IMG/VR virus record: IMGVR_UViG_3300023220_000031
Location: 1 to 20,039 of that record
Length of the DNA: 20,039 nt
From: a virus
Direction: 5' to 3' (one strand)
Shown: positions 1,130-8,186 of the stretch, piece after piece
Numbering within the stretch: position 1 is the first letter of the stretch
How the letters are laid out: every line of letters starts with the position of its first letter
The notes under the pieces: model-generated
What the model was told of the DNA's origin: nothing
Database searches by the model: none
What the model saw: the letters and a program-made list of their open reading frames with translations, nothing else
Made by a program: the position numbers and the translations under genes

Positions 1130-1447
1130 CTATGAGTATTCCTCTAAAATCCTCAAGCCCACATCATGTAAATTAATCCCGTATCTCGCGTAGAATAAAT
1201 CATGCGAGCCTAGCCCATGATAACCTATCGGCCCCTGGTGATGCTCTGGACATAACGGAGTAACATGCCAGTGGCTTTTGCTTATGCGCTGGTTGCCGTT
1301 GGATATTATATGGTGTATGGAAGCGTCCTTTTGGCATACCAAGCAGGTCATAGCCCTTACATAGTCGTGGAAACGCTTCTGTGCGGCGTTTGGCGTAGGA
1401 TTATATTTTTCTTTTATCCTGCCGTGGTTAGGGGCTTTGGGTCGCAT
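1130..1447 (-). CDS. HNH-type nuclease resembling the P1 Ref RecA-dependent nuclease family
   Basis: The 105-aa protein has a basic N-terminus, then CLVC (C35, C38), SIHHIIS (H45, H46), TPLCPEHH (C66, H69, H70) and IGYHGLG (H77). This spacing of paired cysteines, a double histidine and a C..HH block followed by a histidine in a G.HG.G context is what I recall for Ref-like recombination-enhancement nucleases, which cut single-stranded DNA at RecA-made displacement loops. The start ATG has a GGATG-like site. The gene overlaps the upstream LexA-domain gene by 34 bp and is last in the leftward operon, just before the terminator. Its neighbours (NinB, Rad52-like) support a recombination role. The nuclease fold is fairly sure; the RecA dependence is inferred from the family. 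Confidence 0.7.
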   Translation of the reverse strand: MRPKAPNHGRIKEKYNPTPNAAQKRFHDYVRAMTCLVCQKDASIHHIISNGNQRISKSHWHVTPLCPEHHQGPIGYHGLGSHDLFYARYGINLHDVGLRILEEYS

Positions 1448-1740
1448 TTGTCATCCAATATAAATTCGGGCGTTTTAAAGAATACCCACACGCCATTTTC
1501 AGCTCGTATTTGTTGGTGATGGACTGCTTGTGCCGGTAAACTGATTAATTCGATTGTTCTTGCGTGTCCCGGTATGTGGCGGATCATTCCTTGTTCAACA
1601 AGACACTTGACCATACGGTGAATACCAGACTTCGAACGCAATTTCATATATTCCATCATTTCCTGATAGCTTGGCGAATATTCGTTTATACGGATAGACA
1701 TCCGAATATAGTCCAAAAGTATTTTTTGCTGTCGGGTCAT
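1414..1740 (-). CDS. LexA-type winged-helix DNA-binding protein without peptidase domain
   Basis: I chose the ATG at 1740 (MTRQQKILLDYIRMSI...), which has AGAGGTG 6 nt upstream and overlaps the stop of the preceding gene as ATGA. A longer reading from a GTG at 1749 would start within the ribosome site. Residues 1-65 match the LexA N-terminal domain: helix QQKILLDYI, then SPSYQEMMEYMKLRSKSGIHRMVKCLVEQGMIRHIPGHARTIEL. The remaining 43 residues contain no S24 peptidase Ser/Lys dyad and no Ala-Gly cleavage site in context. Self-cleavage is therefore not expected. It could repress phage or host SOS-type promoters, or act as an operon autoregulator; the targets are unknown. Confidence 0.8.
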   Translation of the reverse strand: MTRQQKILLDYIRMSIRINEYSPSYQEMMEYMKLRSKSGIHRMVKCLVEQGMIRHIPGHARTIELISLPAQAVHHQQIRAENGVWVFFKTPEFILDDKCDPKPLTTAG

Positions 1741-2024
1741 GAAAAGCACCTCTTGAAAACAATCTCGTTATTGCCCCATTCGTTTTCGCGGCGTTCTCCG
1801 GTGTCTTCAATAAGCTTTTGTTGCAGCAATTCCGTTGTGCGTGGCCGTGAACTTAATATCGACATGCCGACACGTTTAGCAACTTCGCTTGCGGTGCTTG
1901 GAATTGTGTATCCATCATAAACCATCCGCCTCATGCGCGGAAGTTCTGGAATTAGTTTCATCGCGGCTTCTCTTGACGTATCGGTTTTGCCTAGTGCTGG
2001 CATGTAGTCGAATAAATCAGTCAT
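1737..2024 (-). CDS. Winged-helix phage protein
   Basis: The 95-aa protein has the pattern I associate with a common phage family: a TDTSREAA segment near residue 15, a middle winged helix (STASEVAKRVGMSILSSRPRTTELLQQKLIEDTGERR), and a final strand ending ...NEIVFKR. The layout suggests a small MarR/ArsR-like winged helix. A strong AGGAG ribosome site lies upstream (AATAGGAGAAAGAC before the ATG). It sits between NinB and the LexA-domain gene, with a 4-bp overlap with the latter. It is probably an accessory DNA-binding protein of the recombination operon; its target is not visible. Confidence 0.7.
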   Translation of the reverse strand: MTDLFDYMPALGKTDTSREAAMKLIPELPRMRRMVYDGYTIPSTASEVAKRVGMSILSSRPRTTELLQQKLIEDTGERRENEWGNNEIVFKRCFS

Positions 2025-5816: not shown

Positions 5817-5840
5817 TTAATAATTGAAACCGTCTATAAT
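5813..5840 (+). promoter_or_regulatory. Promoter of the small RNA
   Basis: TTGATT (5813-5818) and a perfect TATAAT (5835-5840) are spaced 16 bp apart. The expected start is 5847-5848, immediately at the G-run that begins the structured RNA. The -35 overlaps the stop codon of the preceding gene. Confidence 0.7.
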
Positions 5841-5846
5841 AGAGGT

Positions 5847-5907
5847 GTGGGGGCTAGATCAGGCCGATCGAACCCCGTAGTCTCACGGACTGCCCCCTAA
5901 CATTTTT
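5847..5907 (+). ncRNA. Candidate small structured RNA, about 60 nt
   Basis: The RNA can close as GGGGGC (5849-5854) with GCCCCC (5892-5897). Inside are a hairpin GATC-AGGCC-GATC (5857-5869) and a second hairpin, either AGTC (5879-5882) with GACT (5888-5891) or CCGT (5875-5878) with ACGG (5885-5888). This makes a three-way junction. TTTTT (5903-5907) follows shortly after, as in an intrinsic terminator. A competing fold pairs GGGG (5849-5852) with CCCC (5873-5876), so the element may switch. A consensus -10 lies just upstream. It could be a trans-acting phage RNA, or a 5' attenuator for the replication genes that begin at 5936. It matches no family I know, and it is too short for a tRNA. Confidence 0.6.
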
Positions 5908-5935
5908 ACAGAGACAGCCAAGGAGACTAAGGCAA

Positions 5936-6085
5936 ATGAAATTACCACCGCACATAGACCGTCTTTTCCAAGACTACCTCAATCTCAAAGCTAAATACAA
6001 TATGCGCATGGCAACATACGATGATATGTATGCCAAGAAACAATTGTATCTGATTGCTTACAATGATTATTTGGGGCGGTTTTAA
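5936..6085 (+). CDS. Small tyrosine-rich phage protein, 49 aa
   Basis: This gene was read directly: MKLPPHIDRLFQDYLNLKAK, ending ...AYNDYLGRF. It has AAGGAGAC upstream (spacing somewhat long, about 10 nt) and joins the replication initiator by a TAATG overlap. The protein is helical and rich in tyrosine, with no membrane span. Its position directly after the RNA element and directly before the initiator gene suggests it belongs to the replication unit, perhaps as a leader or accessory subunit. The function is unknown. Confidence 0.65.
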   Translation: MKLPPHIDRLFQDYLNLKAKYNMRMATYDDMYAKKQLYLIAYNDYLGRF

Positions 6086-6765
6086 TGGCTGAGTTTTATA
6101 TGCGTGATATTAGAGCGTGGCGTGATAGTACAATCAAACTGACATTTGAAGAGCAGGGTTATTTTTCAGCATTACTTGACCTTATTTATATATACCATGA
6201 TTGCTTAATAGACGACGACGATTTAATTTGCCGGGCAATGCCGGTTAATAAAAAGGTTCATTTAAGGCTTAAAAAAAGGCTCATCGAAAATGGATTTATA
6301 AAGATACAAAGCGGGTTCTACTTCAACTCAAGATCAACTCAAGAGCTACTCAAGATCAACTCAAAGTCAGTTCAAAACAAACTCAAAGCCGATAAGAGAT
6401 GGGCTAAGTCACGGAAAACAAAAGAAATGGTTGATGCTGTAGCACTGCAACGGCAATGCGAAGGTGAAAGTGAAGGTGAAAGTGAAGATAATAACCCTGA
6501 CGGGTTATTACGCGCGTACAAGTTTGAAGGCAATGTTATTCGATTAAATTTCAAAGATTACGACAAGTGGAAACAGAGTTATCATGCAATACCAGACTTT
6601 GATGCACAGCTTCAATCGGCAGATGATTGGATTAGCGGAGAAAGCGATAAAAATCAAAAAAGATGGTTTCATGTGATTAGTTCAATGCTTGGGAAAAAAC
6701 ACCAACAATATTTAACTGACGCCAAAAAAGAAATGAACGGCAGCAAAAAGGGGTGGATGCTGTGA
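6085..6765 (+). CDS. DUF1376-type phage replication initiator, 226 aa
   Basis: The N-terminus (MAEFYMRDIRAWRDSTIKLTFEEQGYFSALLDLIY) is the DUF1376-like winged-helix start found in phage initiators, reaching to about residue 85. A variable, repeat-containing linker follows (residues 80-140), with two 11-residue repeats (NSRSTQELLKI, NSKSVQNKLKA) and an EGES repeat. A C-terminal domain, DDWISGESDKNQKRWFHVISSMLGKK, resembles the tails of O/DnaT-like proteins that recruit the helicase. The helicase gene follows with a 4-bp overlap. The repeats arise from 11-bp DNA iterons within the gene, as in lambda O, where the initiator binds iterons inside its own gene. No catalytic motif is expected. The initiator role is inferred from domain and context. 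Confidence 0.75.
   Translation: MAEFYMRDIRAWRDSTIKLTFEEQGYFSALLDLIYIYHDCLIDDDDLICRAMPVNKKVHLRLKKRLIENGFIKIQSGFYFNSRSTQELLKINSKSVQNKLKADKRWAKSRKTKEMVDAVALQRQCEGESEGESEDNNPDGLLRAYKFEGNVIRLNFKDYDKWKQSYHAIPDFDAQLQSADDWISGESDKNQKRWFHVISSMLGKKHQQYLTDAKKEMNGSKKGWML
6324..6389 (+). repeat. Six tandem 11-bp iterons, candidate replication origin
   Basis: Units begin at 6324, 6335, 6346, 6357, 6368 and 6379, with consensus CAACTCAAGAT: CAACTCAAGAT, CAACTCAAGAG, CTACTCAAGAT, CAACTCAAAGT, CAGTTCAAAAC, AAACTCAAAGC. The CTCAA core is kept in five units (TTCAA in one). Eleven bases is about one helical turn and not a multiple of three, so the codon frame shifts from unit to unit. The repeat is therefore not explained by a simple amino-acid repeat. 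It lies in the linker of the initiator gene, as the lambda origin lies in O. Confidence 0.7.
6489..6510. repeat. 9-bp perfect inverted repeat downstream of the iterons
   Basis: TAATAACCC (6489-6497) and GGGTTATTA (6502-6510) pair perfectly around TGAC. It lies within the initiator coding sequence about 100 bp after the iterons, and codes for ordinary linker residues. It could be a melting or primer-start structure of the origin. A 12-bp tandem GGTGAAAGTGAA (6463-6486) lies just before it. Confidence 0.6.
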
Positions 6766-8186
6766 AAAAAGCAGAATTACAAAAACTGAATATTGAAAGC
6801 AATGTTGTTGAATGGTTTGAAAGCCGTGGTATTGAAATGGATATTCTGACCTATGCGGGGATATATACCGGAACGCCGTATATTGGGACAGGTGTTTACA
6901 TAACATTTCCGCGATATAGCCTTGACGGTGATGTTGTAAATAATCGAATGGGGACTTTGATCGATGGTGAGCTGATAGATATTTGTTCAAGCGATACGGG
7001 GCAAGATTGTTTTTATAACGCTCAGGGTCTTGATTTGGCAGTGTCGGAGGAAAAACCGCTTGTCATATGTCAACGTGAAATGGATTCTCTTTCATTGATG
7101 CAATCAGCCCATGCATGGACAATAGCTTATGTTGAGGGCGATGATTTAATATGGAACAACAAAGATAAATTCAGGAAAATAAAAAAAGTTGTGCTGGCTG
7201 GCTTTAATAATGAGCGCGGGAAAGAATTTAACGAAATAATCAGCAAGCAACTGGGAATAGAGAACTGCGAGTTCATTGTTTATCCAGATGATTGCATGAC
7301 CGTAAACGATGTTTTGGTTAAGCATGGGAAGAATAGAGTTCTGCAATTAATCGAAACCGCAAGAGATTATCCTGTTGTTGGTCTGTATCGGCCTGATGAG
7401 TTCCCGCCGATACCAGAAGAACTGAAAAAGGTTCATACAACAAATTTAGGCAATGAACATAACCACCGAATAAAAATAATGCTTGGCAAGTTTATGGTTG
7501 TTACTGGAATACCTGGACATGGTAAATCGGAGTGGGCGGATGGTTTGGTTATGGACTTAGCAAAAAAACATAATTGGAAAGTTTGCGTTTGTTCAACAGA
7601 AATCGACAACGAGGAATATCAAGAAAATTCTATTCATAGATATTTGAGACGACCACTTGATGATGTCGGCGAGAAAGAACCGGCGAAGGCTTTGCGATTT
7701 TATCAAGACCATTACACGTTTATAACCAACAATACGATGGATGATGAAATTGAACTGACTTTAGAAAAATTAATAGAGCTTGCCAAGATAGCTATCGTTC
7801 GAGATGGGTGCAAAATATTATTGCTTGATCCGTGGAACGAGATAGAGCATTGCCGGGGCAGAAACGAAACCGAAACCGAATATACGGGCCGCGCTATTCG
7901 AATGCTTAAGAAGCTTGCCAAGCAATTCAGAATTTTGGTTATAGTGGTGGCCCATCCAAGTAAACCACCACACGGAAAGCAGGAATGCCCGAACCTGTAT
8001 AGCATTAACGGCTCGGCGAATTGGGCGAATAAAGCGGATTATGGAATTATAATTTGGCGCGAAAACAAAGACAGCGACCTTAGTGAAATAAGGGTTGCCA
8101 AGATTAAACGACATGGGCCTATGGGATACGAGGGCTCAATATCAGTTAAGTTGAATGATGCGGCAAAGCGATTTGAAGAAATTTAA
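6762..8186 (+). CDS. Twinkle/DnaB-type replicative helicase with degenerate TOPRIM domain
   Basis: I place the start at the GTG at 6762 (474 aa), which overlaps the previous stop as GTGA and has AAGGGGTGG upstream. A GTG at 6753 is possible. The N-terminal part lacks a primase zinc finger. Residues about 100-195 follow the TOPRIM plan, but the EGE motif reads ICQREMD (101-107) and the DND motif reads AGFNNERG (146-153), so catalytic acids are lost. The helicase core has Walker A GIPGHGKS (249-256), Walker B ILLLDPW (about 352-358), VVAHPSK, and the NKADYGIIIW segment of DnaB/Twinkle proteins. It should unwind DNA at the fork as a ring but not make primers. Gene order and the 4-bp overlap tie it to the initiator. 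Confidence 0.85.
   Translation: MKKAELQKLNIESNVVEWFESRGIEMDILTYAGIYTGTPYIGTGVYITFPRYSLDGDVVNNRMGTLIDGELIDICSSDTGQDCFYNAQGLDLAVSEEKPLVICQREMDSLSLMQSAHAWTIAYVEGDDLIWNNKDKFRKIKKVVLAGFNNERGKEFNEIISKQLGIENCEFIVYPDDCMTVNDVLVKHGKNRVLQLIETARDYPVVGLYRPDEFPPIPEELKKVHTTNLGNEHNHRIKIMLGKFMVVTGIPGHGKSEWADGLVMDLAKKHNWKVCVCSTEIDNEEYQENSIHRYLRRPLDDVGEKEPAKALRFYQDHYTFITNNTMDDEIELTLEKLIELAKIAIVRDGCKILLLDPWNEIEHCRGRNETETEYTGRAIRMLKKLAKQFRILVIVVAHPSKPPHGKQECPNLYSINGSANWANKADYGIIIWRENKDSDLSEIRVAKIKRHGPMGYEGSISVKLNDAAKRFEEI

Follow-up and report, generated by a model that had tools for sequence, protein, structure and literature searches.

A probable phage replication origin built from 11-bp iterons and short repeats inside a DUF1376 initiator gene

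The segment at 6324-6510 of the window, the 20,039-nucleotide stretch of viral DNA that we analysed (positions 1 to 20,039 of IMG/VR record IMGVR_UViG_3300023220_000031), is probably a phage replication origin that lies inside the initiator gene and combines iteron binding, opening over a short-repeat array and helicase entry. The sequence itself shows the repeats, how they are constrained and spaced, in which order the arrays stand and which genes lie alongside; from these we infer that the initiator binds, that the DNA opens, that the helicase is recruited and that the segment acts as an origin.

The initiator gene (6085-6765, plus strand) encodes a 226-aa protein with a DUF1376 N-domain, a long helix followed by a disordered linker, and a helical C-domain. 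The DUF1376 winged-helix domain spans residues about 4-88, and its PF07120 match of 36.7 bits lies above the curated Pfam cut-off of 30.1. DUF1376 was the sole Pfam match and a RepA_N domain was not detected; there was also no O-like match in Pfam or PHROG, where only DUF1376, primosomal and unnamed families appeared. The named PHROG matches are primosomal proteins; DUF1376 itself is catalogued without an assigned function, while phage families containing it are named primosomal. In the AF2 model (mean pLDDT 71), the winged helix occupies residues 21-81 with pLDDT 85-92, and residues 82-122 form one long helix. A fold search with the initiator returned a generic winged helix, with many repressors among the matches; the N-domains of pSK41 Rep and DnaD were present without standing out. 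The next gene (6753-8186, plus strand) encodes a primase-helicase with a DnaB-like C-domain (phrog_239, E=2e-55; PF03796), which is likely the partner of the initiator.

The initial annotation had placed six tandem 11-bp units in the initiator gene, and the tandem-repeat scan bears this out: six ungapped iterons with the consensus CAACTCAAGAT occupy 6324-6389 on the plus strand. The units start at 6324 (CAACTCAAGAT), 6335 (CAACTCAAGAG), 6346 (CTACTCAAGAT), 6357 (CAACTCAAAGT), 6368 (CAGTTCAAAAC) and 6379 (AAACTCAAAGC). This array is the top-scoring tandem repeat of the whole window, in which the scan found no second iteron cluster. Matches to the iteron with up to three mismatches number 70 across the window against a shuffle mean of 57, and 5 of 100 shuffles reach 70; the iteron signal is therefore one of clustering, because the total count is near chance. 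The array codes for residues 80-102, which come straight after the winged helix and belong to a part of the protein that is modelled as helix and not as disordered.

Since 11 is not a multiple of three, a function at the DNA level had been favoured for the array, and synonymous-codon shuffles within the gene (protein and codon usage fixed, n=300) indeed fail to recreate it: the observed repeat score is 23, compared with 10.2 ± 2.5 in the shuffles, none of which scored as high. The six units traverse all three reading frames, so that TCAA recurs as S, Q and L-K codons. Between the window and the related locus L014, every one of the 14 conserved-residue codons in the iterons is identical, whereas upstream the figure is 20 of 43 (p=0.0003). 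In a second relative, L001, a C-to-A change recurs at one unit position in five of the six units; it turns CTCAA into CTAAA in most units and hits differing codon positions, and two of the changes are silent while the others are Q-to-K or S-to-Y. If the changes were placed at random, such a concentration in one column would have P=0.012, which is a weak test. At the sequence level these data show that the 11-bp array is constrained as DNA, and together with the 11-bp period across the family, the second array and the hairpin they give the reading as an iteron origin inside the initiator gene good support.

Downstream of the iterons, a short-repeat array of GAAGGT/GAAAGT hexamers (GTGAAR x4; GTGAA starts at 6464, 6470, 6476 and 6482) lies at 6460-6487 on the plus strand. 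It is absent from the initial annotation, directly precedes a hairpin and corresponds to the 6-7 bp arrays of other family members. In L001, L009, L010 and L012, GTGAA units stand in two reading frames inside one array, which points to a DNA-level role. The hairpin, which had been reported as a 9-bp stem about 100 bp past the iterons, is present at 6489-6510 and is separated from the last unit by 99 bp; its arms are TAATAACCC/GGGTTATTA and its loop is TGAC. No other hairpin of the initiator gene ranks above it, and its own significance is modest (p=0.015). L001 and L014 have hairpins of other sequence at the corresponding place; each of the three is weakly significant (p 0.015-0.029), and the combined value of 0.0009 refers to an interval that was picked after looking. 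A hairpin as a family-wide feature was rejected, with support in these three genes only.

From these elements a mechanism can be proposed. The N-terminal winged helix would bind the six direct repeats with about one protein per helical turn, and the initiators, lined up on one DNA face, would assemble into a short nucleoprotein filament. The DNA over the adjoining short-repeat array at 6460-6487 would then be opened by strain and supercoiling, and the exposed strand together with the hairpin at 6489-6510 may be where the primase-helicase of the following gene enters, brought in by the C-terminal domain of the initiator. Counting against the origin reading, the proposed melting region is not AT-rich: as had been remarked, the stretch after the iterons shows no marked AT-richness, with 45% GC at 6390-6520, above the 38% GC of the iterons. 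GC skew, which had been suggested as a check on the origin, tracks gene direction and leaves no mark at 6324-6510.

Relatives of the N-domain come mainly from contigs of Emcibacteraceae, Kordiimonadaceae and other Alphaproteobacteria, which suggests, without proof, a host for the window phage. Searches for DNA similarity between the window and phage records gave no match, and L001 was the only close relative among viral contigs. The 11-bp array occurs in two of ten N-domain relatives (L001 and L014), while the eight close relatives L006-L013 keep the gene and the GTGAA units but have no clear 11-bp array. Absence of the repeat from relatives that keep the gene had been named as evidence against an origin, and this partly applies: L001 and L014 carry the array, and L006-L013 are the main evidence against a universal array requirement within the clade of close relatives.

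A wider survey covered 83 DUF1376 initiator genes, collected by PF07120 and profile searches of Pseudomonadota genomes together with close relatives; it is unweighted by phylogeny, and a redundancy filter was applied to the second set of 33 genes only. In the first 50 genes, the mean z was 2.21, 1.73 and 1.25 at lags 11, 22 and 33, with a further peak at lag 7, compared with 0.12, 0.05 and 0.37 at lags 11, 22 and 33 in 109 neighbouring control ORFs. The lag-7 peak, spotted in this first set, was then tested on the second set, which gave z values of 2.37 at lag 11, 1.55 at lag 22 and 2.27 at lag 7, with smaller peaks at lags 6, 12 and 22; the 78 controls of this set were flat (0.18, 0.22 and -0.09 at lags 11, 22 and 7). 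When arrays were called by local tandem matching at z above 3.5, a long array was found in 31 of 83 genes, a short array in 28 and both in 18, and 52 genes had no long array above this threshold. The two calls overlap in 3 of the 18 genes, mostly as one repeat seen at two lags. Wherever the arrays are separable, the short one lies 3' of the long one (15 of 15 genes), at a gap that ranges from adjacent to 294 bp. Almost all arrays start near or past the domain end (28 of 30 long and 25 of 25 short). The unit sequences are unrelated between many genes (e.g., ATGCGAACGCA, CGTGCAACGAC, GGCGTTCCAAC and CGAAAACGCGC), and the short units are often CCA-centred (AACCATA, CACCAGA, CCCATCT), some having other cores.

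We weighed three other explanations of the repeats. The array might be an operator through which the winged-helix protein represses its own gene and the downstream helicase, and we regard this as unlikely. Winged helices are common in repressors, many of which came up in the fold search, and intragenic repeats could block transcription; however, a primase-helicase is encoded next, the PHROG matches are to families of replication proteins, and an operator would leave the ordered second array and the hairpin superfluous. Operator and origin functions could also coexist, as they do in iteron plasmids. A neutral minisatellite or slippage by-product in a tolerant linker-coding stretch, with no function at the DNA level, is slightly less probable still. 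Disordered linkers do tolerate repeats, the short arrays of L112, L110 and L114 resemble simple-sequence repeats, and the unit of some short repeats, at 6 bp, stays in frame. Yet slippage within a coding gene should not favour a unit of 11 bp, which changes the frame. The lags of 11, 22 and 33 come back in genes with unrelated units but not in controls, the iteron codons are unchanged at conserved residues between the window and L014, the array order is fixed, and the stretch encoded by the iterons is modelled as a helix and not as disordered. Finally, an 11-bp period imposed by the protein, in which the 3.6-residue repeat of an amphipathic helix would yield ~11 bp in DNA, is very improbable even though the model has a single long helix at residues 82-122 and a stretch of 11 residues recurs (NSRSTQELLKI/NSKSVQNKLKA), because synonymous shuffling keeps the protein, abolishes the repeat and never reaches the observed score, and because TCAA recurs in all three frames.

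The initial annotation had called the segment a lambda-like origin in the initiator gene. The presence of iterons within the gene holds, the iteron form and the AT-rich tract do not, and lambda is thus used here as an analogy only; the accompanying remark that the units are shorter and contiguous and that the initiator family differs agrees with the 11-bp direct repeats and DUF1376. In lambda, the iterons are imperfect inverted repeats of ~19 bp bound by O dimers, and an AT-rich tract adjoins them (PMC7466680, PMC5043065). As proposed for the window, the lambda origin in gene O and the origins of Stx phages have the repeats bound by the initiator midway along its gene, with an opening region after them, and a helicase-recruiting gene comes next in the operon. 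The lambda origin, however, has four such repeats spaced 20-23 bp (lags 20 and 23 in our lag test) where the window has six contiguous direct repeats, an AT-rich tract where the window has a short-repeat array, and the O protein with the P loader where the window has a DUF1376 initiator and a primase-helicase gene.

A second comparison is offered by RepA_N plasmids. The winged-helix N-domain of pSK41 Rep binds repeats that lie where the rep gene encodes the linker, and the RepA_N N-domain and origin are exchangeable as a unit, as in pPR9 (PMC5703833). The predicted sites of the window likewise lie in the linker-coding part of the initiator gene, whereas the four Rep boxes of pSK41 come with an A+T-rich tract, its Rep has a different C-domain, and no RepA_N domain was detected in the window protein. 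The window origin, by analogy, would work like the lambda and RepA_N origins and belongs to neither, because its iteron form and lack of an AT-rich tract fail the lambda comparison and its protein domain fails that with RepA_N. Tandem 11-bp direct repeats also serve as initiator sites in the bind locus of pMV158 RepB, a likeness to the window; unlike the window, pMV158 is a rolling-circle plasmid with a relaxase-type initiator and a binding site outside the initiator gene.

Three loci with DnaD-like or O-like initiators (L017, L020 and L041) resemble the window in carrying 11-bp ACTCAA/AACTCA arrays, with an ACTCA core, right behind the N-domain, which differs from that of the window in not being DUF1376 by Pfam. 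None of the three has a second 6-7 bp array at z above 3.5. Totals of ACTCAA-type arrays in viral contigs were rejected as evidence, since a permuted hexamer gave a similar count (16 versus 13 loci). Location says more than the totals: arrays inside initiator genes amount to 7 of 16 for ACTCAA, 1 of 13 for AACTCA and 0 of 7 for ACTGAA, in small sets in which the 7 loci represent about two lineages. Nine 11-bp ACTCAA arrays in viral contigs lie outside recognised initiator genes (L015, L016, L019, L023-L027 and L030). The initiators of Escherichia phage Louie (L003) and Hafnia phage yong1 (L004) share the C-domain of the window initiator and carry 7-bp based repeats (CCTGATT/CCCTTAA), ahead of which Louie has a weak 11-bp array. 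From these sequences, the two-part layout may extend beyond DUF1376.

The gene context bears on how binding domain and sites are inherited. L052/L138 are homologous to the window over the initiator (27% identity) and the full-length primase-helicase (30%, E=5e-67) in the same gene order, and their repeats differ from those of the window: CGAAAACGCGC (11 bp) and CTAGAAG (7 bp). L001 has the N-domain and array of the window type, a different C-domain and an AAA+ loader-like protein next; this retention of N-domain and array type with a changed C-domain fits an exchangeable module as in plasmid pPR9. By this analogy, the binding domain and its sites would be a module swapped between initiators. 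In L138, highly repetitive ORFs readable on both strands lie at 1159-2075, near the initiator region.

Origins inside initiator genes are already well known from lambda and RepA_N. Our search of an open-access library found no papers on origins in DUF1376 genes or on 6-7 bp arrays, and although such absence is no proof, the recurrent one-turn direct iterons in DUF1376 genes and the ordered second array may be new. It is conceivable, and we advance it tentatively, that the origin used by DUF1376 initiators is of a previously undescribed two-part kind located in their own gene, in which 11-bp iterons taking one initiator per turn are followed by a 6-7 bp single-strand loading track; the latter, often CCA-centred and here GTGAAR, would be sequence-specific and would replace the AT-rich tract. 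The origin anatomy could then be read from the gene itself, allowing origin prediction in many prophages, and initiator specificity would become testable because each gene carries a binding domain and its sites. This poses the questions of how DNA opens without an AT-rich tract and what role the second 6-7 bp array has.

Other features were observed nearby. At 5847-5913, just downstream of a TATAAT at 5835-5840, the window contains a weak full-length match to the int-alpA RNA (RF02996; 28.0 bits, under the gathering score of 35.8; E=0.0019), and nine related loci gave no match to this RNA. Upstream of the initiator, L007 and L010-L013 have GC-rich inverted sequences (e.g., GAGCGGGTGGG...CCCACCCGCTCA) followed by T-rich stretches, which are possibly terminators or small RNAs. 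On the minus strand, window positions 1414-1749 encode a 111-aa protein with a LexA DNA-binding domain (PF01726, E=4e-13), probably a phage repressor.
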